The translations under genes and the position numbers were made by a program. From assembly GCF_000025325.1 (NCBI RefSeq), contig NC_013743.1, positions 868,001 through 932,000 of the forward strand: a stretch of DNA of 64,000 nucleotides, read 5' to 3'. This document shows, in pieces, positions 19,680 through 33,975 of this stretch. A model generated the notes under the pieces. The model was not told the DNA's origin. It did not search any database and saw nothing but the letters and a program-made list of their open reading frames with translations. Every line of letters begins with the position of its first letter. The first letter of the stretch is position 1. The DNA is from Haloterrigena turkmenica DSM 5511. GTDB taxonomy: Archaea > Halobacteriota > Halobacteria > Halobacteriales > Natrialbaceae.

Positions 19680-22600
19680 ATGAGTCTCAGCACTCTCCTC
19701 CCGGATTCCGGCCGTCTCGGGACGGACGGCCGGCGGGAAGCGACCGGTTCCGTGACGAATCGACTCGAGTCGAGCGCCGAAACGGTCGGCGAACTGTCGA
19801 CGCGGGTTCGCGACGCAGCGAGTCGGCGGGCGACCGACGTCGCCGAGCGCGCCGTCGACGAACTCCTCGAGCGCGCCGTCGATCGAAGCGCGGACGACCT
19901 GCTGGCGGCGTCGGAGGTCGGCGGCGGCGGTAACGGCGCCGCTGAGCTCGGATCGGACGACCCGCTCGATCGGGCGCTCGAGAACTTCCTGCGGCGCTAC
20001 GGCCTCGACGGGGATCGGCTGGACGACCGCACGCTGGACGCGATCCGGACCCGGTTGTCGGTCGCTGGCGCCGACGCGGACGCCGAAGACCTGCTCGAGG
20101 AGGTTCTGAGCGATCGATCAACGTCAGGAGCCGAGTCGGCCGACGGGACGGACCTCCCGGCCGACGATCCGTTCGCCGAGGCGTGTTCGCGACTCCGCGC
20201 GCGACTGGACGGGACGGCGGAGCGCCCCGTCGACCGCTTGCTCGAGGACCTGCTCGAGCGCGACGCCGTGGTCGTCGGCCACGAACTCGAGCGCGCGCTC
20301 ACCGAGGAACTGCCGTCGCTCGTGGCAGACCTGGAGGCGGAACTGGCGCAGATGGAGTCGAGCGGTTCGGCGCCCTCGAGAGCGAGAACGCTCGACGCAG
20401 GCTCGAACGACGACCCCGACGACGGGCCCGCGGGACGCGGTCGATCGATGAGCGTCCGGTCGGCCGTTACGATGGCCGTCGCGGCGACGACGCTGCTTTC
20501 CGATGGTGACGGCGTCGACCCCGCGGTCGGGGAGTTGGCGACGAGCCTGTTGCAGGTCAGCGACGGCGGCGTTCCGATCGAACGCGTCTTTAGCGAGCTG
20601 GTCCCGTTACTGGTGCGGTCGGGGGCGGAGCGCGATCGCGGCCTCGACGCGCTCCGTTCGAACTCGGCCGGGTCGCTGGCGCTTGTGGGACTGTTCGTCG
20701 CCAACCTCGCCGCGATGACGCTCGGGGCCTACGTCTCCCGGAAGCGGGCGCCGCCGATCCCCAACGAGATCCGCGGCCCGAACGGCGAACCCGTCGTGAC
20801 CGACGAGCAGGTCCGGACGGGAAAGAAGGCGTTCCAGGCGAACGGGCTCATGAATCAGGGATCGGTCCTGGGCAACGGCTCGTACTTCGGGGTCGATCTG
20901 ACGGCCGACGCGCTCGAGTCGAAAGCCGAATATATGCGAGAGTACTACGCGCGCCAGCGCGGGAGCGACTCCTTCGAGTCCCTCTCGGAGGGCGACCGGG
21001 CGGCCGTCGAACGGCGCGTGGAACGGGAACTCGACGCCGACGCGCCCAAGGACGACGTCGCTCGCTACTCGGCGGCTGAGGTCTACGCTCACCGGCGGCT
21101 CCGTGAGGCGTACGTCGACCGCTACTACGGGGGTTCCCCCGAGCGGGGGATTCCACAGGGCTACGTCGACTCGCCCGAGGAGGCCGCCCGGATCGCCGAC
21201 TTCGCCTGCTGGACGGCGTGGATGGCCCACACCAACCGGCCGGATTCCGACCACTCCTTCACGAACGACTGGCCGTACGTGCCCGGGACCGGGAACCGAC
21301 CGACCGGACAGGTCGTCGTCTGGAGTACGATCAGCGTCGTCCTACTGATCGCCGGTGGCGGGTTCGGCGTCTGGGCCTACCACTCCTTCGACGTCGCCGA
21401 GCCGACGACCGACCTCGTCGACGTTCCCTCGCCCGACTCGGTGTCGGTCACGCCGTCCCAGTACGCCGCGGCGCGGTACGTCCCCGTCGCGGGCGCGCTG
21501 TTCGTCGCCCAGGCCCTCGTCGGGGCTTATTTGGCCCACTACTACGTCGAACGCACCGGCTTCTACGGCATCGGCGAGGCGTTAGGGATCGACCTCGTCT
21601 CCTTGCTGCCGTTCTCCGTGGGACGCGCCTGGCACGTCAATCTCGGCATCCTCTGGATCACGACGCTGTGGCTCGCGGGCGGACTCTTCTTGCCGGGCCT
21701 GTTCACCGAGCGCGACCCGCCCTGGCAGGCCGAGGGCGCGACCGCGCTGCTGGGCGCGCTCGTCGCCATCACGGTCGGCGCGTTCGCCGGCGTCTGGCTC
21801 GGTACCCGCGGCGCGTTCGGTTCGCCCGGATCCGGCGACGACGGCGACCTCTGGTGGTGGCTCGGCAGCGAAGGCCTCGAGTACCTCGAGGTCGGCCGCG
21901 TCTGGAAGCTGGGCCTGCTCGCCGGGTTCGCCACCTGGACGGGACTGGTGCTCCGCGGCGTTCGCCAGCTGGACGAACCCGCGACGGGACTGGGCCACTT
22001 CGTGACCTACGCGGGCGGCTCCATCGCGCTCATGTTCGCCGCGAGCATGCTCTACACGCCCGAGACGAACATGGCGGTGACGGAGTTCTGGCGCTGGTGG
22101 GTCGTTCACATGTGGGTCGAGGGCGTCTTCGAGTTCTTCGTCACCGCCGTTATCTCCGCCGCGCTGGTCTCGATGGACCTGATCGAGAAGGCCGACGCCG
22201 AGCGGGCCATCCTCTTCGAGGTGTTCGCGATCATGGCCGCCGGTATCGTCGGCGTTTCCCACCACTACTGGTGGGTCGGCCTCCCCGACATCTGGGTGCC
22301 GATCGGCACTACGTTCTCGACGCTCGAGTTCGTCCCGCTGGTCTTCGTCCTCTACCGAAGTCTCGGCGAATACCGCTCGCTGCGGGCCCAGGGCGAGGAG
22401 TTCCCCTACACGCTGCCGCTCCTGTTCATCCTCGGCTCCTCCGTCTGGAACTTCGTCGGCGGCGGCGTGCTAGGCTTCTTCATCAACCTGCCGCTGATCA
22501 ACTACTACGAGCACGGGACCTACCTGACCGTCGCTCACGCCCACACCGCGACGTTCGGCGCCTTCGGCCTGCTCGCGCTCGGGCTGGGCACGTACATCCT

Positions 22601-22913
22601 GCGCGTGGTCACTCCCGAATCGGCGTGGAACCCCGCGTGGTTCCGCGGCGCGTTCTGGCTGACTAATATCGGCCTCACCGTTATGACCGTCGCCTCGCTG
22701 CTCCCCGTGGGCTTCCTGCAACTGCAGGCCGCCTATCAGGACGGCTACGCCGCCGCGCGCAGCCTCGAGTTCTACGAACAGGACCACGTCCAGACGCTGC
22801 TGTGGGCGCGGACGCTCGGCGACACGCCGATGATCCTCGGCGCGCTCGCCTTCACCGCGGCGTCGGTACGCCACCTCTGGGACGCCCGAAAGCGGCGACT
22901 CGAGGCGGCGTAG
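19680..22913 (+). CDS. norB: Quinol-dependent nitric oxide reductase (qNOR) with ~325-residue N-terminal extension
   Basis: 1077 residues; usual qNOR length is about 750. From residue ~329 it follows qNOR: first TM (AGSLALVGLFVANLAAMTLGAY), the extracytoplasmic NGLMNQGSVLGNGSYFGVDLTADAL region, then a 12-helix heme-copper-type core. Metal ligands are visible: HVNLGILW (near 653), HMWVEGVFEF (near 810), the HH pair in GVSHHYWW (near 861) and HAHTATFG (near 953-955). It reduces NO to N2O with quinol electrons. Residues 1-328 are acidic, helical, soluble-looking and include two similar segments (DPLDRALENFLRR... and DPFAEACSRLRAR...) of unknown role. Confidence 0.9.
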   Translation: MSLSTLLPDSGRLGTDGRREATGSVTNRLESSAETVGELSTRVRDAASRRATDVAERAVDELLERAVDRSADDLLAASEVGGGGNGAAELGSDDPLDRALENFLRRYGLDGDRLDDRTLDAIRTRLSVAGADADAEDLLEEVLSDRSTSGAESADGTDLPADDPFAEACSRLRARLDGTAERPVDRLLEDLLERDAVVVGHELERALTEELPSLVADLEAELAQMESSGSAPSRARTLDAGSNDDPDDGPAGRGRSMSVRSAVTMAVAATTLLSDGDGVDPAVGELATSLLQVSDGGVPIERVFSELVPLLVRSGAERDRGLDALRSNSAGSLALVGLFVANLAAMTLGAYVSRKRAPPIPNEIRGPNGEPVVTDEQVRTGKKAFQANGLMNQGSVLGNGSYFGVDLTADALESKAEYMREYYARQRGSDSFESLSEGDRAAVERRVERELDADAPKDDVARYSAAEVYAHRRLREAYVDRYYGGSPERGIPQGYVDSPEEAARIADFACWTAWMAHTNRPDSDHSFTNDWPYVPGTGNRPTGQVVVWSTISVVLLIAGGGFGVWAYHSFDVAEPTTDLVDVPSPDSVSVTPSQYAAARYVPVAGALFVAQALVGAYLAHYYVERTGFYGIGEALGIDLVSLLPFSVGRAWHVNLGILWITTLWLAGGLFLPGLFTERDPPWQAEGATALLGALVAITVGAFAGVWLGTRGAFGSPGSGDDGDLWWWLGSEGLEYLEVGRVWKLGLLAGFATWTGLVLRGVRQLDEPATGLGHFVTYAGGSIALMFAASMLYTPETNMAVTEFWRWWVVHMWVEGVFEFFVTAVISAALVSMDLIEKADAERAILFEVFAIMAAGIVGVSHHYWWVGLPDIWVPIGTTFSTLEFVPLVFVLYRSLGEYRSLRAQGEEFPYTLPLLFILGSSVWNFVGGGVLGFFINLPLINYYEHGTYLTVAHAHTATFGAFGLLALGLGTYILRVVTPESAWNPAWFRGAFWLTNIGLTVMTVASLLPVGFLQLQAAYQDGYAAARSLEFYEQDHVQTLLWARTLGDTPMILGALAFTAASVRHLWDARKRRLEAA

Positions 22914-24573: not shown

Positions 24574-26349
24574 ATGACCCTCCCGTCGGATCGGTCTGAC
24601 GACCGAGTAAGTAGACGTGCCGTGCTCGCCGCTGGAAGTACTGGGATTGCCGGTTCCGTAGCCGGCTGTATGGACCGTATTCAGCGGCTCATCACCGGTG
24701 CGGCCAGCGATCAACTCTCGATAACTATCCTCACGCTGCCCACTGATAACGACCGACAGGCGATTCAGATCGCCCGCCAGCTCGAGAAGAACCTCAACGC
24801 GGTTGGTATCAACGTCCGGATCGAACCCCGCGCCAACGCCGAGTTGCTGCAGACGGTCTTGCTCGAGCACGACTTCGATTGTTACATCAGCAGCCACCCG
24901 GGCGGCTACGACCCCGACTTTCTGTACGAGACGTTTCACTCGAAGTTCGCCCCCGAATCCGGCTGGCAGAACCCCTACGGGTTCGTAGATACCGAGATCG
25001 ACGAGGTACTCGAGCGACAGCGCTCGACAACGGGGTCGGAACGAAAGGACGCCGTCGGCGAAGCGCTCGACCGACTGGCGCAAACGCACCCGATCGTGCC
25101 CATCTGCATTCCCGACGAGCGGCGACTCGTCAGAACGGATCGGTTCGACGGCTGGAACGACCACCACCTCGGGACCCAACTCGGCTACCTCGGTCTCGAG
25201 CCCGACGAGGACGACTTCGAGGACGAGGTGGTCCTGAACGCGGTGATCACCGACTCGAGCCCGTCGAGAAACCTCAACCCGCTTGCGGCGCCGTACCGCT
25301 ACCGGGGCCCGTTCATCGATCTCCTCTATGATTCGATTGCGACCGAAGACAACGGGGAACTCCGGCCGTGGCTCGCCGAGTCCTTGGAGTGGGACGGCTC
25401 GACCGCGACGGTCACGCTCCGATCGAACTGTCGGTTCCACGACGGCGAGCCGGTGTCCGCCGACGACGTCAAATTCACGTACGAATTTCTGGACGACACG
25501 TCACTCGGCGTCCGCGACGGACAGTCTCCGGCGCCGAGATACCGCGGACTGGGCGACGCCGTTGAATCGGTGACGGCCGTCGACGATCTGACCCTCCGGA
25601 TGCGATTCGGGACGAGCGACGAAGTCGGCAAACTGGCCTTTACGGTCCCGATTCTCCCGAAACACATCTGGAAGACGGCGGTCGAAGACCGCCTCGAAAA
25701 CGGCGCCGAGCCCATCCAGGGGACGTGGGATATCGTGACCACCGACGAGATCTCGCCGATCGGCAGCGGTCCGTACGCACTCGCCGAGCGGGAGCCACGG
25801 TCGCACATTCGATTCGAGCGCTTCGGCGATCATTTCACCAGTCGCGAGTACGTCGACCTGCCGGAACCCCGCGTCGACGAACTCGTCTTTCACGTCGAGC
25901 CGAACAGTAGCGCGGCCATCGAACAACTCGAGGCGGGGAACGCCGATGTGACGGCCTCCAGTCTCGGAGCGGAAACGGTCGGGGACGCTCCGTCCGGCCT
26001 CGAACTCGTCGAGTCCAAGTCGTGGTCGTTCTATCACATCGGGTTCAACGTCCGGAACTCGCCGTTCAGCAACCTCCACTTCCGACGAAACGTCGCGCGA
26101 TTGATCGACAGGGAATCGCTCGTGGCGGACGTCTTCAACGGGCAGGCGAGCCCGTCCGTCACACCGGTTACGGAGGAGTGGGTACCGGACGACCTCGAGT
26201 GGGACGGTGCCGCACCATACGCGCCCTTTTTCCGTGATGAAACGAACAGTGGGGATACGGGAGAACTGGACGTCGAACGGGCGAAGCGATCCTTCGAACG
26301 GCACGGATTTCAGTACGACGAAGAGGGAGAATACATCGTGAGGTCCTGA
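24574..26349 (+). CDS. ABC transporter substrate-binding protein (SBP family 5), circularly permuted
   Basis: 591 residues. Tat lipoprotein signal: VSRRAVLAAGSTGIAGSVAGC. Residues ~48-200 (LSITILTLPTDNDRQ..., ELLQTVLLEHDFDCYISS, GYDPDFLYETF, DTEIDEVLERQRS, ALDRLAQTHPIVPI) correspond to the C-terminal part of DppA/OppA proteins. Residues ~225-591 (RNLNPLAAPYRYRG, ELRPWLAESLEWDG, DDVKFTYEF, PIGSGPYAL, NLHFRRNVARLIDRESLVADVF, DVERAKRSFERHGF) correspond to their N-terminal part. So the normal order is swapped. Binds peptides or similar solutes outside the cell. Its stop overlaps the PAP2 start. Confidence 0.85.
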   Translation: MTLPSDRSDDRVSRRAVLAAGSTGIAGSVAGCMDRIQRLITGAASDQLSITILTLPTDNDRQAIQIARQLEKNLNAVGINVRIEPRANAELLQTVLLEHDFDCYISSHPGGYDPDFLYETFHSKFAPESGWQNPYGFVDTEIDEVLERQRSTTGSERKDAVGEALDRLAQTHPIVPICIPDERRLVRTDRFDGWNDHHLGTQLGYLGLEPDEDDFEDEVVLNAVITDSSPSRNLNPLAAPYRYRGPFIDLLYDSIATEDNGELRPWLAESLEWDGSTATVTLRSNCRFHDGEPVSADDVKFTYEFLDDTSLGVRDGQSPAPRYRGLGDAVESVTAVDDLTLRMRFGTSDEVGKLAFTVPILPKHIWKTAVEDRLENGAEPIQGTWDIVTTDEISPIGSGPYALAEREPRSHIRFERFGDHFTSREYVDLPEPRVDELVFHVEPNSSAAIEQLEAGNADVTASSLGAETVGDAPSGLELVESKSWSFYHIGFNVRNSPFSNLHFRRNVARLIDRESLVADVFNGQASPSVTPVTEEWVPDDLEWDGAAPYAPFFRDETNSGDTGELDVERAKRSFERHGFQYDEEGEYIVRS

Positions 26350-27317
26350 TGCTCGCCGAGTTACTGACGCAGGTAGCGGTCGTCATCGCCGTCCTACTCG
26401 TCGGGTTCGTCCCCCTGTGTATCGGCCGACGCCGGCTGCGGGCGACCCGCCGCGAGTGGCGGGACCGAATGCGAGAGTCCGCCCCCGTCGCGAGCGTGGT
26501 GCTCGTCGTGTTACTCGCGAACCGATTCACTCGACAGCATCTTCCCGATCTCTCCTGGGCGATCGACTGGAACCTGACGCCGACGTTTTACGCCATCGAG
26601 GGAGAGGCGATCATCTGGTTCCAACAGTTCGCCAGCCCGACGGTGACGCAGTACTTTTCGTTCGTCTACATCTACGGCTACGTCTTCATTCTGATCTTCC
26701 CCGTGATCGCGTACTTCGCGCTGTCGGATACGCGCCCGCTCCGGGAGCTGCTGTCCGCATACGCGCTGAACTACCTGCTCGGACTGTTCCTCTACCTCCT
26801 GGTGATCGCGTACGGGCCGCGAAACATCATGCCCACCGAGATCGGGACCGTGCTGTACGATTTCCGACCGCAGTATCAGTACCTGACGGGGGAGGTCAAC
26901 CACAACACCAACGTCTTCCCGTCGTTGCACACCTCGCTGTCAGCGACGATCGCGATCTTCGCCTACCGAACGAGAGAGGAGTACCCGATCTGGTTCGCCG
27001 TTGCGGTCCCGCTGGCGGCGAGTATCGTGATCTCGACGATGTATCTGGGGATTCACTGGGCGATCGACGTCGTCGCGGGCATCCTGCTCGCGGCCTTTAC
27101 GGTGTACGCCGCCGACCGTCTCGTCGGCCGCTGGTCGCTCTCGGAGGACTTCGGCATCGAGGTAGACGAGTACGCGGCCCGAATCCGGCGGGTCGCCGGA
27201 ACGAGCGCACCGACCGATCCCTCCCCGTCCGCCGAGGACGACGAGTACGGCGAGACCGACGGGACCGACGTCGAGAGCCCCTCGAGCGACGAGCCGTCGA
27301 CGAGTCGCCGGTCGTAA
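26349..27317 (+). CDS. PAP2-family membrane phosphatase / phosphotransferase (Aur1/Ipt1-like)
   Basis: 322 residues, about six TM helices. PAP2 signature pieces: YGPRNIMP (motif 1 remnant), VFPSLHTSLSATI (PSxHT motif 2) and STMYLGIHWAIDVVAGIL (SxxxxxxHxxxD motif 3). Such enzymes cut or transfer phosphate on lipid-linked or inositol-phosphate substrates. The C-terminal ~60 residues are an acidic, Ser/Pro-rich cytoplasmic tail. The ATG overlaps the SBP stop by one base (TGATG), so the two form one operon; why an SBP is paired with a lipid phosphatase is unclear. Confidence 0.82.
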   Translation: MLAELLTQVAVVIAVLLVGFVPLCIGRRRLRATRREWRDRMRESAPVASVVLVVLLANRFTRQHLPDLSWAIDWNLTPTFYAIEGEAIIWFQQFASPTVTQYFSFVYIYGYVFILIFPVIAYFALSDTRPLRELLSAYALNYLLGLFLYLLVIAYGPRNIMPTEIGTVLYDFRPQYQYLTGEVNHNTNVFPSLHTSLSATIAIFAYRTREEYPIWFAVAVPLAASIVISTMYLGIHWAIDVVAGILLAAFTVYAADRLVGRWSLSEDFGIEVDEYAARIRRVAGTSAPTDPSPSAEDDEYGETDGTDVESPSSDEPSTSRRS

Positions 27318-27369: not shown

Positions 27370-27900
27370 TCACTCCCGGATTTCGATCTCGGTCGCGGCG
27401 ACGAGGCCGCGGTCGGCCGCGTCGTCTCGATTGACTCGCGCTGTGAGCGTGTAGCAACCGGGATCGACGGGTGCCCACTCGTTCTCGGCGATCCGGATGC
27501 GCTGGGGCCACTCGCGGCTGAATCGCTTGCGCTCGCCGCGGGCGAAGGAAAACGCGTCGGGACGGTCGGGTACCGGACGCTCGAGCCGCGAGGCGGCCGT
27601 CGCTCCGTCGACGGCCCAGACCCACCGCTCGGGGGAGTCGGTCCGCAGCCGGATCGGAAACGGGAGCCGATTGCGGAACTCGACGCGGACGGCGACGGGG
27701 TCGCCGCGCTCGTAGACGTCGCGGTCGGTCGCGATCGAGACCGCGACGGCCCGCGTGCGGAGCGCGACGGGCACGAACGCGTGGCTGAACGCGTCCCAGT
27801 TGATCGTGCGGCCAGTCTCGTCCGCGCTCGACGCGGGCGCGAACGGATCGTCCGCGTCCCGTTCGAGCGCGTTCGAGTCGTCGACTCGTTTTCGCGTCAT
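27370..27900 (-). CDS. BsuPI-like domain protein, last gene of dpp operon
   Basis: 176 residues, starts MTRKRVDDSN; its ATG overlaps the dppF stop (ATGA). No signal peptide. The C-terminal ~120 residues read as one Ig-like beta sandwich: VSIATDRDVYERGDPVAVRVEFRNRLPFPIRL, WVWAVDG, FARGERKRFSREW, VDPGCYTLTARVN, resembling the BsuPI proteinase-inhibitor/DUF domain. Conserved as a trailing gene of haloarchaeal peptide transporters as far as I recall. Function unknown; maybe modulates the ATPase it is coupled to. Confidence 0.55.
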   Translation of the reverse strand: MTRKRVDDSNALERDADDPFAPASSADETGRTINWDAFSHAFVPVALRTRAVAVSIATDRDVYERGDPVAVRVEFRNRLPFPIRLRTDSPERWVWAVDGATAASRLERPVPDRPDAFSFARGERKRFSREWPQRIRIAENEWAPVDPGCYTLTARVNRDDAADRGLVAATEIEIRE

Positions 27901-29207
27901 CGGTGTGGTGTCTCCGTCTCGGGGTCGTCCGGCAGGTGGTCCGCGTACGCGTCGTCGAACCGGTGACAGGCGATCGAACGGTCGCCGTCGCCGCCGTCGA
28001 CCGGCTCGAGTCGCGGCCGATCGGTCTCGCACGGCGTCGCGAAGGCCGAGGCGAGTCGCGCCCGCCCGTCGGCGATATCGCCGGCCGCGATGGCCTCGAG
28101 TGCGTCCGCGAGGACGCGGTCGGCGTCGTCGTCCCGAAGTTCGGTCGGGATGTCGAACGCGTCGCGGATCGCGGCGGGAACGTCCTCATCGGCCACCGAG
28201 GTAGCGAGTACCGACTCGAGGCCGTCTTCGGCGTCGGCGAGTCGTCTCCGCAAGCGGAGGATCCCCCGAATCGCGTCGGACTCGAGGTCGTACTCGGCGG
28301 GCGGGAGCACCGACGGACAGCGCGTGTGGAACCGGCAGCCCGACGGACAGTCGCCCGGGGAGGGGACGGCGCCCTCGAGGACGATCCGGTCGCCCTCCCA
28401 GCGTGGATCGGGTTCGGGGATCGCCGAGCGCAGCGCCGCCGTGTAGGGGTGTGACGGGTCGTCGAAGACCGCCTCGGTCGGGCCGACGTCGACGATCTTC
28501 CCGAGGTACATCACGGCGACTCGGTCCGCGACGTGCGCGACGATCGAGAGGTCGTGAGCGATGAAGAGATAGGCGAGTCCGAACTCGTCTTGCAGGTCGG
28601 CCAGCAGGTTGCAGAGCTGGGCCTGGACCGAGACGTCCAGCGACGACACCGGTTCGTCGCAGACGACGAGTTCCGGTTCGACGGCCAGCGCGCGGGCGAT
28701 GGCGATTCGCTGTTGCTGGCCGCCGGAGAACTCGTGAGGGTACCGCTCAGCGTGGCCTGGCGCGAGCCCGACGGTCTCGAGCAGGTTGCGGACGCGGGCG
28801 TCGCGCTCCGACGGCGGGACGACGTCGTGCACTTCGAGGGGTTCGCCGATGGTGTCGCCGACGGTCAACCGCGGGTTCAGGCTCGCGCCGGGGTTCTGCG
28901 GGACGTACTGGACGTCCGTCCGCACCGCTCGGAGTTCGGATCGGGAGCAGGCGGTCAGGTCGGTGCCGCGGTAGGACACCGTGCCGGCGGTCGGCTCGGT
29001 GAGCCGAAGCAGCGAGCGGGCCAGCGAACTCTTGCCGCAGCCGCTCTCTCCGACCAGTCCGAGCGTCTCCCCCTCGCGGATCTCGAGATCGACGCCGTCG
29101 ACGGCCCTGATCGTGCGTTCGTTGCCCAGCAGTCGGTCGAGGACGCCGTCGGCCGTCACGTACTCCTTCTCGAGGCCCTCGACGCGGAGCAGCGGTTCGT
29201 TGCTCAC
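27897..29207 (-). CDS. dppF: Oligopeptide/dipeptide ABC transporter ATP-binding protein (DppF type) with extended C terminus
   Basis: 436 residues. Walker A GESGCGKSS, Q-loop, signature FSGGQQQRIAIARAL, Walker B LVVCDEPVSSLD and switch His in IAHDLSIV are intact. After the oligo_HPY Cys cluster (CPSGCRFHTRCPSVLPP) there are ~105 extra residues (acidic, helical) before the terminal CETDRP...ACHRF piece, i.e. an insertion inside the usual iron-sulfur-like Cys module. Energises uptake with DppD. ATGA overlap with dppD on one side and the BsuPI-like gene on the other. Confidence 0.88.
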   Translation of the reverse strand: MSNEPLLRVEGLEKEYVTADGVLDRLLGNERTIRAVDGVDLEIREGETLGLVGESGCGKSSLARSLLRLTEPTAGTVSYRGTDLTACSRSELRAVRTDVQYVPQNPGASLNPRLTVGDTIGEPLEVHDVVPPSERDARVRNLLETVGLAPGHAERYPHEFSGGQQQRIAIARALAVEPELVVCDEPVSSLDVSVQAQLCNLLADLQDEFGLAYLFIAHDLSIVAHVADRVAVMYLGKIVDVGPTEAVFDDPSHPYTAALRSAIPEPDPRWEGDRIVLEGAVPSPGDCPSGCRFHTRCPSVLPPAEYDLESDAIRGILRLRRRLADAEDGLESVLATSVADEDVPAAIRDAFDIPTELRDDDADRVLADALEAIAAGDIADGRARLASAFATPCETDRPRLEPVDGGDGDRSIACHRFDDAYADHLPDDPETETPHR

Positions 29208-30271
29208 TCGGACTCACCCCCGTCTCCGTCCTCGCCCCTGACGACGACATCGTAGTCCAGCCCGTCCTCGAGGACGCCGGTGTACTCGTGGCAGGCCGCG
29301 AGGTGGGCGTCGGGGGCCGCTTCGAGCGGCGTCGCGGCCGTCCCGGTCTCCGCGTCGACGAGCGGCGGGTCCCGGGTCGCACAGCAGGACTCGGCGTACG
29401 GACAGCGCGGGTGGAACCGACAGCCCGTCGGGGGATCGACGAGGTCGGGCGCGCTGCCGGGGATCGTCGCCAGTCGGTCGCGGTCGTCACCGAAGCGGGG
29501 GATCGACGCCATCAGCCCGACCGTGTAGGGGTGTTTGGGATCGTAGTAGAGGTCGTCGACGGTCGCACGCTCGACGATCTGGCCGGCGTACATGACCAGC
29601 ACGCGATCGCAGCGTTCGGCGACGACGCCGAGGTCGTGGGAGACGAACTGGATCGCCGTCTCGAACTCCGCGGCGAGCTCCTCGAGCAACTCGAGAATCT
29701 GCGCTTCGATCGTGACGTCGAGCGCCGTCGTCGGCTCGTCGCAGACGAGCAGGTCGGGCTCGCAGGACAGCGCCATCGCGATGACGATCCGCTGTTGCTG
29801 GCCGCCGGAGAACTCGTGGGGGTAGTCCGCGTAGCGGCGCTCGGCGTCGGGAATGCCGACACGCTCCAGGAGTTCGACCGTCCGTCGGCGGGCTCGCTCG
29901 TCGGTGACGTCCCTGTGGGCGCGGATCGCCTCGGCGATCTGTTCGCCGACGGAGTAGACGGGGTTGAGCGCCGTCTCGGGGTCCTGAAACACCATCGCGA
30001 TCTCGTCGCCGCGGAGCGATCGCAGCTCCGAATCGGAGCACTCCAAGATGTTCCGGTCTCGAAAGCGGATCTCGCCGCCGACGATCTCGCCGGGCTCGTC
30101 GATCAGCCCCAGCAGGGCGAGGCTGGCGACGGTCTTGCCGGCGCCGCTCTCGCCGACGACGGCGAGGCGTTCGCCGCGTTCGATCTCGTAGCTGATCCCG
30201 TCGACCGCGCGGACCACGCCGTCTTCGGTGTAAAACTGGACGACGAGGTCCTCGACTTCGAGCAGCGCCAC
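29204..30271 (-). CDS. dppD: Oligopeptide/dipeptide ABC transporter ATP-binding protein (DppD type)
   Basis: 355 residues. Walker A GESGAGKTV, signature FSGGQQQRIVIAMAL, Walker B LLVCDEPTTALDV, switch His in VSHDLGVVAE, and the oligo_HPY tail with CRFHPRCPYAESCC...CHEY. Normal length. Starts 1 bp after the dppC stop region and overlaps dppF by 4 bp. Confidence 0.9.
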   Translation of the reverse strand: MALLEVEDLVVQFYTEDGVVRAVDGISYEIERGERLAVVGESGAGKTVASLALLGLIDEPGEIVGGEIRFRDRNILECSDSELRSLRGDEIAMVFQDPETALNPVYSVGEQIAEAIRAHRDVTDERARRRTVELLERVGIPDAERRYADYPHEFSGGQQQRIVIAMALSCEPDLLVCDEPTTALDVTIEAQILELLEELAAEFETAIQFVSHDLGVVAERCDRVLVMYAGQIVERATVDDLYYDPKHPYTVGLMASIPRFGDDRDRLATIPGSAPDLVDPPTGCRFHPRCPYAESCCATRDPPLVDAETGTAATPLEAAPDAHLAACHEYTGVLEDGLDYDVVVRGEDGDGGESE

Positions 30272-30272
30272 G

Positions 30273-31343
30273 CTACCGGCGCCTCCGTTCGGCGGTCTCG
30301 CCTCGCGGATCGAGGGCGTCGTTGATCCCGTCGCCGACGAGGTTGATTGCCATCACGAACAGGAAGATCGCCAGCCCGGGGAAGACGGTGCGGTGCCAGT
30401 GGCCGCCGGCGATCGAATCGCGGCCGTCCGCGAGCATCGACCCCCACTCGGCGGTGCTCGGCTCGAGGCCGAGGCCCAGGAATCCCAGCGCCGCGGCCGT
30501 CAGGACGACCGTCCCGACGTTCAGCGTCGCCTGGACGATGACGGGGGCGACGGCGTTCGGAAGGACGTGTCTGGCGATGACGGTTCGATCCGGCGTCCCG
30601 AGGGCCCTCGCGGCGGTGACGTACTCGCGTTCTTTCACCGAGAGGACCTCGCCGCGCAACAGGCGAGCGTAGCCGATCCAGCCGGTCAGCGCGAGCGCGG
30701 CGACGATATTCCAGTAGCCGCGGCCGACGACCGCGACGACGGCGATCGCGAGCACCAGGAACGGGAACGCGTAGAGGGTGTCGACGACCCGCATGACGAG
30801 TTCGTCGACCCAGCCGCCGAAGTAGCCGGCGATCGCGCCCAGCGGAACCCCGACGACGAGCGCGAGCGCGACGGCGACGACCCCGATGCTGAGGCTGAAC
30901 CGCCCGCCGACGAGGACCCGAGAGAACAGGTCCCGGCCCGCCCAGTCGGTCCCGAAGGGGTGGGCCACCGACGGCCCGGCGTTGGGCGGCCCGACGTACA
31001 TCTCGGCGGGATCGTACGGCGCCAGCGAGAACGGCTGGACCGTGATCGTGTACTCGGCCGTCGAGAACGCGATCGGTCGGGCGAAGACCGCGACGATCGA
31101 GAGCACCGCGATGATCGCGAGGCCGAGCATCGCTGTCCGATTCGATCGAAATCGACTCCAAGCATCTTCGAACCGGCCTCGAGACAGGGGCGCGGCGTCG
31201 ACTGCCCGGCCGTCAGTCGCTCGACCGTCGACCCAGGGATCGACGGCGGCGTCGTCGCGGTCGGCCGCGACCGCCTCGTCGAACCCCTCGATGCGAATCC
31301 GGCCGCGCTCGGTCGTCGATCGATCTCGTGTCTCTCGGGTCAT
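30273..31343 (-). CDS. dppC: Oligopeptide/dipeptide ABC transporter permease (DppC type)
   Basis: 356 residues. A ~65-residue charged cytoplasmic leader is followed by six TM helices. Contains FGTDWAGRDLFSRVLVGGRFSLSIG and the EAA loop (REYVTAARALGTPDRTVIARHVLPNAVAPVIV). An N-terminal OppC-type TM comes before the large loop. The long N-terminal leader is more extended than in bacterial DppC. Forms the membrane channel with DppB. Confidence 0.9.
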   Translation of the reverse strand: MTRETRDRSTTERGRIRIEGFDEAVAADRDDAAVDPWVDGRATDGRAVDAAPLSRGRFEDAWSRFRSNRTAMLGLAIIAVLSIVAVFARPIAFSTAEYTITVQPFSLAPYDPAEMYVGPPNAGPSVAHPFGTDWAGRDLFSRVLVGGRFSLSIGVVAVALALVVGVPLGAIAGYFGGWVDELVMRVVDTLYAFPFLVLAIAVVAVVGRGYWNIVAALALTGWIGYARLLRGEVLSVKEREYVTAARALGTPDRTVIARHVLPNAVAPVIVQATLNVGTVVLTAAALGFLGLGLEPSTAEWGSMLADGRDSIAGGHWHRTVFPGLAIFLFVMAINLVGDGINDALDPRGETAERRRR

Positions 31344-31353
31344 CGGTCGTATC

Positions 31354-32307
31354 TCACCGTTCGTCTCTGATCCGCGGGTCGAGTACGGCGTAGGCGATAT
31401 CGACGAGCAGGTTCGCGACGACGACCGAGACGGCGATGACCAGCACCGTCGCCTGGACGGTCGGGAAGTCGCGCTGTCCGATGGCGCCGACCAGGAGCCG
31501 CCCCATGCCGGGCCAGGAGAACACCTGCTCGACGACGACCGCGCCGTCGACGAGGAGGGTCAACTGGAGGCCGGCGACGGTGACGACGGCGATCAGGGAG
31601 TTGCGCAGGACGTGTTTGCAGATCACCGTCCGCTCGCGCAGCCCCTTCGCGCGGGCCGTCCGGACGTACGGCGCGTTCAGTTCCCGGAGCATCGACGAGC
31701 GCAGCAGGCGCGCGACGAGCGCGGCCGAGGCCGTCCCGAGCGTGATCGTCGGTAGGACCAGAAACCACAGCGTCTCGAGGCTCAAAAGCGGCGCGTCGGG
31801 CGGAATAACCCGGAACCAGCCGAGGTGAACGCCGAAGACGAACAGGAGGACCAGCCCCAGCCAGAAGTTCGGCGTCGCGATGCCGGCCAGCGCCGCGATG
31901 CGGCTGACCTCGTCGGCGGGTTCGCCCCGCTTGACGGCCGAAACGACGCCGACGGGAATCCCAATCAGGAGCGAACAGAGCCACGCCGCGCCCCCGAGTA
32001 CGAACGTGTAGGGCAACCGATCGGCGATCGTCGCCCCGACGTCGCGACCCGTGATCGGCGACCGGCCGAACTCGAGGACGAGCGCGTCGCGCAGCCAGAA
32101 CAGATACTGCTCCCAGACCGGGCGATCGAGGTTGTACTCGGCTTCCAGGGATTCCCTGACGGCCGGGTCGACCTCCCGAAAGCCGAGGACGGCGTCGATC
32201 GGATCCCCCGGCGTCAAGTGGAGCAAGGAAAACGTCAGGGCCGTCACACCCAGCAGTACCGGAACCGAAACCAGCACCCGCTTTAGGACGTAGTTGGCCA
32301 GCGTCAT
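31354..32307 (-). CDS. dppB: Oligopeptide/dipeptide ABC transporter permease (DppB type)
   Basis: 317 residues, six TM helices. N-terminal NYVLKRVLVSVPVLLGVTALTF, LTPGDPIDAVLG, and the EAA loop SMLRELNAPYVRTARAKGLRERTVICKHVLRNSL. Twenty-four bp after the SBP stop; 10 bp before dppC. Confidence 0.9.
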   Translation of the reverse strand: MTLANYVLKRVLVSVPVLLGVTALTFSLLHLTPGDPIDAVLGFREVDPAVRESLEAEYNLDRPVWEQYLFWLRDALVLEFGRSPITGRDVGATIADRLPYTFVLGGAAWLCSLLIGIPVGVVSAVKRGEPADEVSRIAALAGIATPNFWLGLVLLFVFGVHLGWFRVIPPDAPLLSLETLWFLVLPTITLGTASAALVARLLRSSMLRELNAPYVRTARAKGLRERTVICKHVLRNSLIAVVTVAGLQLTLLVDGAVVVEQVFSWPGMGRLLVGAIGQRDFPTVQATVLVIAVSVVVANLLVDIAYAVLDPRIRDER

Positions 32308-32331: not shown

Positions 32332-33975
32332 TTAGCTGAAGTACTCCTCGACGATTCGCGCTTCGAACTCTGGACCGACGAAGGTCTCGTGGGTCGGCGA
32401 GATCGGCGTGTAGGCCACGGTGCCGGCGCCGTGGAACACGTCCTCGATGATCCGCTCGCGCGGGATGAGTTGGCCGATCCCGCGCCGAACCTTCGGATTG
32501 GAAAACGGCTCGCGGTAGCTCGGATAGCCGAGGAAGTCGACGGCGGCGCCGGTCGTTCGGTCGACGACGAACGCGTCGTCGGCTTCGAACGTCTCGAGGC
32601 TCTCGTTCGGGAGCCCCGTGGTCAGGTGAATATCGCCCGCCTCGAGGGCGCCGCGCCGGGCCGACGATTCGGTGACGATCCGCATCGTCACGGTCTCGAT
32701 CGGCGGCGTCTCGGGGACGCCGTTGCTCCCGTCGTGCCAGTGGTCCTCGTTGGCGACCAGCCGCCAGAGGGTGGCGGGCTCGTGTTCCTCGAACGCGTAC
32801 GGGCCGGTTCCGACCGGTCGCTCGGTGATGTCGTGCGTGCCGTCCGCGACGGCCTTCGGGAGGATCGGCACCTGCGCGATCGCCGTTTCCAGCGGCCCGT
32901 ACGGCCGCCGGAGGGAAATTTCGATCTCGTGGTCGCCGAGGATCTCTGCGCTCTCGTACCAGTTGTACACGTCCTGCTCGCTCGGCGACCCCTCGTATCG
33001 CTCGAGGGTCGCACGGACGTCCGCGGCGGTAAACGGCTCGCCGGTGTGAAATTGGACGCCCTCTCGCAGGTCGAACCGCCAGGTCGTCTCGTCGATCCGG
33101 TGCCAGTCGGTCGCGAGCAGCGGCCGAGCGCTCCCGTCGAAGTCGATCTCGAGGAGCTGTTCGTAGAGCAGGCCGGTGGCCATATACGAGACGTCGTCGG
33201 CCGCCCGGACCGGATCGTAGCTGTCGATCTTCGTCCCTGCGTCGCCGACGAGCTCGGTCTCGTCGGTGGTGAGCTCCGTGTACACGCCGAGCGTCGGCGC
33301 GTAGATCGACTTGTACTCATCGCCGGGGACCGGATACGTCCGGAATCCGTCGATCGCGTCGGCTCGGTAGGTGACGATCTCTTCGGGCGCGCGAACGAAC
33401 GACAGCGGCGATTCCTTGACGAGGAGTTCCTGCAACTCCTCGTAGATCGCGACGCGCTCGTCGCCGTCGACGGTCGCAACGCCTTCGTCGATGAGCTCGT
33501 CGACCCGCTCGTTCTCGTAGTGGTTGATGTTGAGGCCGGTCGGAGCGAAACTGTCGGAGTGAAAGCCAGGATAGACGTACTGATGCGGATCCCAGCCGCC
33601 GATAAACCCCAGACAGACGAGCGCGTTCTCCTCGTTGGCGGCCATGTTGTTGACCAGATCGATGTAGGACGTCCACTCGAGGGTCTCGAACTCGACGTCG
33701 AACAGATCGGTGCCGTCCAGTTCGTGCTGGACCAACTGCGCCCACCGCTTTCGCCCCTCGGTCTCGGCGTTCGAGTAAATCGTCGTCTCGACGGGCGGTT
33801 CGACGCCCGCCTCCTGAAAGCCCTCGAAGATGAGTCTCTCGGGGTCGCTATCGAGGTCGATCCCGATATCGGTGCTGATACAGCCGGCCGCACCGGCCAT
33901 GCCGAACCCCCCAAGTCCGGCGAGCACCGATCGACGAGGGATTCGGTCAGAATCACCCTCACCAGTGTGTGCCAT
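32332..33975 (-). CDS. ABC transporter substrate-binding protein (SBP family 5), circularly permuted, second copy
   Basis: 547 residues; Tat lipoprotein signal (IPRRSVLAGLGGFGMAGAAGC). Residues ~42-215 (DPERLIFEGFQEAGVE, VQHELDGTDLFDVEFE, GFIGGWDPHQYVYPGFHS, NERVDELIDEGV, YEELQELLVKESPLSFV) match the C-terminal region of DppA-type SBPs. Residues ~245-547 (SYDPVRAADDVSYMATGLLYEQLLE, RPLLATDWHRIDETTWRFDLREGVQFHTGEPFTAADV, PVGTGPYAF, PFSNPKVRRGIGQLIPRERIIEDVFHGAG) match the N-terminal region. First gene of dppBCDF. The break point differs from that of the 24.5-kb SBP: here the DPEKA-type segment lies at the N terminus. Confidence 0.85.
   Translation of the reverse strand: MAHTGEGDSDRIPRRSVLAGLGGFGMAGAAGCISTDIGIDLDSDPERLIFEGFQEAGVEPPVETTIYSNAETEGRKRWAQLVQHELDGTDLFDVEFETLEWTSYIDLVNNMAANEENALVCLGFIGGWDPHQYVYPGFHSDSFAPTGLNINHYENERVDELIDEGVATVDGDERVAIYEELQELLVKESPLSFVRAPEEIVTYRADAIDGFRTYPVPGDEYKSIYAPTLGVYTELTTDETELVGDAGTKIDSYDPVRAADDVSYMATGLLYEQLLEIDFDGSARPLLATDWHRIDETTWRFDLREGVQFHTGEPFTAADVRATLERYEGSPSEQDVYNWYESAEILGDHEIEISLRRPYGPLETAIAQVPILPKAVADGTHDITERPVGTGPYAFEEHEPATLWRLVANEDHWHDGSNGVPETPPIETVTMRIVTESSARRGALEAGDIHLTTGLPNESLETFEADDAFVVDRTTGAAVDFLGYPSYREPFSNPKVRRGIGQLIPRERIIEDVFHGAGTVAYTPISPTHETFVGPEFEARIVEEYFS

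Follow-up and report, generated by a model that had tools for sequence, protein, structure and literature searches.

Circularly permuted family-5 substrate-binding proteins in Haloterrigena turkmenica and the recurrence of order changes in the family

The window, i.e. the whole stretch of DNA analysed here, comprises 64,000 nucleotides (C1:868001-932000) of the 5.44 Mb genome of Haloterrigena turkmenica DSM 5511. It carries two genes, designated copy A and copy B, which encode substrate-binding lipoproteins of family 5 whose chains run in circularly permuted order. Copy A and the gene next to it comprise the following features, given in window coordinates.

24574..26349, + strand: copy A (P0001), circularly permuted family-5 substrate-binding lipoprotein, 591 aa
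24574..24669, + strand: copy A Tat signal peptide SRRAVLAAG and lipobox VAGC, with Cys32 (read from the sequence)
24709..25209, + strand: copy A residues 46-212, C-terminal-type segment, first in the chain (C profile, 244 bits)
25186..25233, + strand: copy A junction, about residues 205-220, old C-terminus joined to old N-terminus (low pLDDT at 196-210)
25210..26325, + strand: copy A residues 213-584, N-terminal-type segment, second in the chain (N profile, 449 bits)
26269..26310, + strand: copy A helix DVERAKRSFERHGF, residues 566-579, beside which the chain is cut (sequence, doubled profile, and the model, with helix at 567-576)
26349..27317, + strand: PAP2-superfamily (PF14378) membrane protein with conserved PSLH and T-x5-H-x3-D motifs (Pfam)

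The first-pass annotation had described copy A as a family-5 binding protein in circularly permuted order, preceded by a Tat lipobox, and this description holds in every sequence test. The open reading frame at 24574-26349 (+), the twin-arginine motif SRRAVLAAG, the lipobox VAGC and all the other motifs quoted are present. R14, R15, G31 and C32 are invariant across the alignment of the permuted set, and copy A is accordingly a predicted Tat-exported lipoprotein. Both proteins score far above the curated cut-off of 32.4 bits for the Pfam profile SBP_bac_5 (PF00496), with 183 bits for copy A and 204.7 bits for copy B. In copy A, residues 262-585 correspond to positions 1-284 of the 368 profile positions. 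When the genomic DNA was searched with the same profile, positions 290-362 were found at C1:892724-892942 and positions 1-286 at C1:893357-894334, so that the DNA for the end of the family profile precedes that for its start; both lie on one strand, within a single open frame.

Comparison with solved structures gave the same arrangement. Residues 44-203 of copy A resemble chain residues 380-536 of 6npo (E 9e-8), and residues 250-532 resemble residues 51-312 of AppA, 1xoc (E 9e-20), in which the second piece is weak (5.1 bits). The first segment also resembles the C-terminal part of normal-order family-5 proteins encoded in the same genome. A doubled profile was built by placing two copies of a 501-position profile of 32 normal-order haloarchaeal family-5 proteins one behind the other. 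Copy A gives a single continuous match to it (280 bits, residues 37-583), which starts at position 319 of the first profile copy and runs to position 331 of the second; nearly every permuted protein tested likewise produces one unbroken match. NCBIfam searches returned weak matches of the DppA, NikA, Opp and GsiB types only, far below cut-off.

Judged by sequence, copies A and B both hold the N- and C-terminal segments of the PF00496 fold. Neither has the N-terminal segment before the C-terminal one, and both are permuted variants rather than standard members; in each, the two segments are homologous to one normal-order protein, in swapped order and within one chain, which is what defines a circular permutant. 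The comparison of copy A with its counterpart in Haloterrigena salina gave dN 0.056 and dS 0.291 (103 synonymous and 73 nonsynonymous differences). As the resulting dN/dS is about 0.19, and as the order is kept in all 26 A-type proteins of the tree, from 10 haloarchaeal families, the gene is not decaying. The copy A chain consists of signal peptide, C-terminal segment and N-terminal segment; purifying selection acts on it, and the chain is conserved from one haloarchaeal family to the next.

Copy B lies downstream on the opposite strand, within an operon of transporter genes.

32332..33975, - strand: copy B (P0002), permuted family-5 substrate-binding lipoprotein, cut before the helix, 547 aa
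33298..33804, - strand: copy B residues 58-226, C-terminal-type segment, first (homology, profiles)
32356..33255, - strand: copy B residues 241-540, N-terminal-type segment, second (homology, profiles)
31354..32307, - strand: DppB-type permease of the copy B operon (Pfam, neighbourhood comparison)
30273..31343, - strand: DppC-type permease of the copy B operon (Pfam, neighbourhood comparison)
29204..30271, - strand: DppD-type ATPase of the copy B operon (Pfam, neighbourhood comparison)
27897..29207, - strand: DppF-type ATPase of the copy B operon (Pfam, neighbourhood comparison)

Both halves of copy B could be placed on one solved chain, 5u4o, with residues 269-527 on 74-331 and residues 55-202 on 356-497 (E 1e-47 overall). 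The doubled profile gives a single match of 511 bits over residues 46-537, entered at 319 and left at 305. Comparison with the relative in genome G191 yielded dN 0.045 and dS 0.187, a dN/dS of about 0.24. The dppA position of this DppB-C-D-F operon is occupied at some loci by a permuted protein (L246-L252, L254 and the frame-broken L253) and at others by a normal-order one (L255-L260); the permeases alongside are mostly 55-75% identical to their counterparts in the copy B operon. The halves of copy B share 47% (N) and 40% (C) identity with the normal-order protein of the operon partner family in genome G026, and five other genomes gave the same picture. The presence of permuted and normal B-type proteins in the same place beside DppBCDF shows that the order switched inside a working operon. 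At L253 (6061-7696, +, genome G164), the B-type permuted gene is split into an ORF for the C segment and an ORF for the N segment, through a frame break or as a pseudogene, and the adjoining DppBCDF genes are intact. A further gene after dppF (27370-28032, -), without Pfam match, is conserved in most B-type operons, permuted or normal; by eye, its product resembles a BsuPI-like inhibitor.

The site at which the chain is cut could be located closely. Copy A ends directly after the helix DVERAKRSFERHGF, in agreement with the earlier placing of the break just behind this helix (566-579) and with the exit from the doubled profile. Copy B begins with the equivalent helix (DPERLIFEGFQEAG), and its end corresponds to the position directly ahead of that helix. 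The normal-order B relative L255 has EEYLGYDTEQAATLLEEGLNEAGVETPFQTTMITN here, which places the cut of copy B between EEYL and GYDT, without obvious loss. On the doubled profile, the B types are cut before the helix (305-311) and the A, E, F and L005 types after it (mostly 326-340); within the L010 family, L312-L316 are cut before the helix and the others after it. Taken over all types, these positions mark one short region which has been used repeatedly, on either side of a single helix. The exception is the Thorarchaeota protein L391 (3898-5832, -), a family-5 protein with a C-terminal membrane anchor which is permuted elsewhere, at about profile position 190.

Permuted proteins are widespread. 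The Haloterrigena genome encodes 16 family-5 proteins, five of them permuted (A, B, L005, L008 and L010) and 11 in normal order with continuous Pfam profile matches. The search of haloarchaeal proteomes for the same order, proposed together with the initial description, found the A-type order class-wide in Halobacteria. At E 1e-20, the A-type profile has matches in 296 of 391 genomes, of which the weakest may be normal-order relatives; the matches listed are nearly all full-length. Further permuted types are the L005 type, the L010 type, the B type, the mixed group E, and F (L329, L335). At the fetched loci, the order was read in 117 permuted and 89 normal ORFs, a ratio which does not represent a frequency, since the loci were largely fetched with permuted queries.

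Beyond Halobacteria, permuted proteins occur in another archaeal family of the same phylum (L366, L367, L369 and L370). Among them, L366 (5730-7472, -) has a C-terminal membrane helix and the other three have Sec lipoboxes. In Bacillota, the phylum of Clostridium, about 15 genomes out of 199 gave continuous matches, and the complete sequences of L383-L390 were inspected. On plasmids of Alphaproteobacteria, permuted proteins were checked in Nitratireductor sp. OM-1 and Neorhizobium galegae HAMBI 540; like L385 and L386, they have plain signal peptides without a lipobox. In 16 other bacterial and archaeal genomes, the matches listed were to the N segment only, as in normal-order proteins, save for one Thorarchaeota protein. 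The permuted examples are annotated simply as 'ABC transporter substrate-binding protein'.

The permutation had first been called unusual, and the Tat lipobox had been treated as part of the phenomenon. Neither view fits a form that has five copies in one genome, spans the class Halobacteria, extends beyond haloarchaea, and includes relatives with Sec lipoboxes, a C-terminal membrane anchor or no anchor. A haloarchaea-specific permutation is ruled out by the finds in the other archaeal family, Bacillota and Alphaproteobacteria, as is a requirement for Tat export or lipoprotein status by the plain signal peptides and C-terminal anchors.

Structure prediction was performed on alignments of full-length permutants together with N-terminal fragments of normal-order proteins. 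The AlphaFold2 model of copy A (25 rows) reached a pLDDT of 76.5 and a pTM of 0.75, with most of residues 51-195 at 72-92; its weak points are the signal region, the junction at 196-210, and residues 558-561. In Foldseek, the 50 matches listed for this model were all family-5 binding proteins (best E 2.6e-15), with TM scores of 0.29-0.43 by query length. Foldseek follows chain order, and about 390 columns were confirmed, at TM 0.40-0.49. Low TM scores are as expected if an order-dependent aligner follows only the larger segment. The model of copy B was weaker (pLDDT 66.7, with residues 63-152 below 50), and superposed on 5u4o at 3.1 A over 334 columns (Foldseek, E 2e-17). No permuted family-5 protein was seen among the best 60 of 115 matches to solved structures, all of which are in normal order. 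Sequence homology and the moderate pLDDT make the placement of the first segment in the predicted copy A fold likely, and copy A would accordingly adopt the two-lobed flytrap fold common to these proteins, in which a short linker would connect the old ends.

In such a fold, the new chain ends would lie on the outer face of the C-lobe, and the lipid anchor would then hold the C-lobe instead of the N-lobe. Both natural termini of DppA are in the N-lobe, from which it follows that permuted lipoproteins should be tied to the membrane via the C-lobe. The swap may have been an adaptation to membrane tethering, in which the anchor moved from N-lobe to C-lobe, and the Tat lipoboxes of the aligned haloarchaeal permutants and the Sec lipoboxes of others are in its favour. 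We nonetheless regard this as rather unlikely, as normal-order haloarchaeal proteins are tethered as well, the Nitratireductor, Neorhizobium and L385/L386 permutants have no lipobox, and L366 and L391 have their membrane anchors at the C-terminus. With soluble and C-terminally anchored permutants in existence, tethering does not cover the whole family-5 set.

The number of order changes was estimated on trees for which the two segments were aligned separately and then joined in one order; the large ones came from fast searches over about 500 columns. In a tree of 107 proteins there are five order changes, all forced by branches with SH-aLRT >= 95, and the grouping of all permuted proteins in one clade is rejected (lnL difference 320, p-AU 2.7e-61). 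A tree of 83 proteins, to which bacterial permutants were added, has eight changes, seven of them forced by supported branches. L010-type proteins diverge too far to be included there; a tree of their own shows three order changes and rejects one permuted clade (p-AU 0.001). For the A and E types as one clade, p-AU was 0.05 (36 rows), so that a shared origin is not rejected and separate origins are not claimed. Cautiously stated, the chain order of family 5 has switched at least six times. There were several order changes in the family, and those of the B type took place inside an otherwise unchanged DppBCDF operon.

These counts do not separate gains of the permuted order from reversals to the normal one, and could also be produced by a single ancient permutation followed by several reversals. 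This scenario would accommodate a shared origin of the A and E types (p-AU 0.05) and the B group, in which the permuted L251 and L252 stand around the normal L255-L260. We consider it improbable: one clade of all permuted proteins is rejected, the cut sites differ between the B type, the other types and the Thorarchaeota protein, and reversion would have to be assumed for most bacterial relatives, whose order is normal.

Permutation by duplication is a general route to proteins of this kind (PMC3320104). A gene would be duplicated in tandem and fused in frame, giving the order N-C-N-C; if the N segment that follows the signal peptide and the C segment at the far end were then deleted, the permuted order would remain. 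The expected intermediate has a living likeness in another archaeon (L368/L392, G471 C18), in which an ORF of 1011 aa, situated in an operon that includes permeases, encodes a single signal peptide followed by two complete units in the order N-C-N-C (565 bits, residues 57-998). Whilst L368 is not itself the ancestor of the haloarchaeal permutants, we infer that the family-5 permutants arose by this route.

Alternatively, halves from different paralogues may have been fused, with no permutation of a single gene. Copy A would suit such an origin, having no known close normal-order orthologue (the nearest normal-order proteins, L337 and L338, are distant). However, both halves of copy B have their nearest relatives in one and the same normal-order operon partner family, and the fusion of neighbouring paralogues differs from permutation by duplication in the source of the two copies alone. 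We consider a fusion of different paralogues improbable.

It is highly improbable that copy A is an ordinary protein, whether its first 160 residues formed another domain or its lobes stood in normal order, either of which the first-pass annotation had named as incompatible with its reading. The first segment taken alone does score more weakly against some solved chains. Nevertheless, these residues are the family's own C-terminal segment, as matched in the genome, in 6npo and in 5u4o and by the continuous doubled-profile match, and the listed structural matches of the model belong without exception to family-5 binding proteins. That the order is an artefact of faulty assembly, of a frame error or of gene decay, for which the relative broken into two ORFs in G164 might speak, has a negligible probability, given stop-free open frames, the dN/dS values of both copies, and an order repeated in independent assemblies from many genera, including complete records of named organisms.

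The neighbourhoods suggest different roles for the permuted types. The B, E, F, L005 and L010 types adjoin DppBC(DF) genes in nearly all loci, and most likely feed ordinary peptide-type ABC importers, as DppA does. In Escherichia coli, a scoop motif of DppB contacts both lobes of DppA (PMC12136057). ABC permease and ATPase neighbours are present for copy B, whilst the A type has no adjoining permease of its own: DppB/DppC-type permeases were found at one of the 40 A-type loci (L206-L245), and that one is the copy B operon, to which the DppBCDF genes near copy A belong.

The usual neighbour of the A type, class-wide, is the PAP2 gene. It comes next on the same strand in 37 of the 40 loci, which represent 10 haloarchaeal families, and often the two genes overlap or are a few bases apart. 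In the window, its ATG overlaps the copy A stop codon at 26349, and in A-type loci the pair is often tandemly duplicated. The PAP2 proteins conserve PSLH (191-194), T230, H236, D240 and R158, thereby sharing PSLH, T-x5-H-x3-D and R158 with PAP2 phosphatases and transferases (PF14378, PF01569), and these residues are consistent with an active enzyme. The lack of a transporter of its own and the gene overlap point to a PAP2-partner role for copy A, which is most likely an extracellular lipid-anchored ligand-binding partner or subunit, or sensor, for the PAP2 enzyme. The pair suggests a haloarchaeal cell-surface system. No description of it, or of any PAP2 pairing with an orphan binding protein, was found in open-licence papers.

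Overall, copy A is very probably a functional permutant of family 5 (structural cluster C) with the usual fold and an origin by duplication, in a family whose order has switched and whose permuted members serve importers or PAP2 enzymes. The fuller proposition is about evenly balanced: the order would be labile, with a minimum of six or seven switches across archaea and bacteria, most of them at a single helix, via tandem fusions and in working operons, and the ancient A-type permutant would have abandoned ABC transport for a role as the ligand-binding subunit of a PAP2 membrane enzyme across haloarchaea.

Among known systems, DppA, OppA, AppA and NikA (PF00496, cluster C) share with the permutants both segments, the domain content and lipoprotein export, and, for copy B, the place beside DppBCDF. 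The permutants differ from them in the reversed order of the segments, in new ends beside a C-lobe helix and, for copy A, in having no adjoining permease of its own. Permutation of a binding protein has a precedent in Tp0684 (TpMglB-2) of Treponema pallidum, a circularly permuted glucose-binding lipoprotein assigned to 'cluster Bc'; it was proposed to be permuted because of membrane tethering or the requirements of export (PMC4990184). Both cases are natural circular permutations of an ABC-type binding protein, lipid-tethered in many instances. Tp0684 has the type I, cluster B sugar-binding fold, is cut in the N-lobe, and has been treated as one topological subclass (PMC4990184), whereas the family-5 permutants belong to another fold family, with another cut site and several origins; their sequence and fold matches are to family-5 proteins and not to the cluster B fold of Tp0684. 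In open-licence papers, no report of permuted family-5 or haloarchaeal binding proteins was found, in line with the initial remark that none was known from haloarchaea. A permuted type-I protein was already known, and the main interest of the family-5 case lies in its recurrence, the shared cut site, the switch inside an operon, and the A-type/PAP2 pair.

Natural circular permutation is usually regarded as rare and old. In family 5 it has recurred, and recently enough for related species to carry, at one operon, permuted and normal proteins which are about 45% alike; a living tandem-fusion form resembles the permutation intermediate. The route of permutation, the reason why one site is favoured, and whether the membrane-tied lobe matters can now be tested. 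Furthermore, automatic annotation hides the permuted class, and profile and structure searches which assume chain order undercount such proteins.

Elsewhere in the window, an ORF at 19680-22913 (+) encodes a nitric oxide reductase of the NorB type with about 360 residues ahead of the NorB cytochrome-c-like domain.
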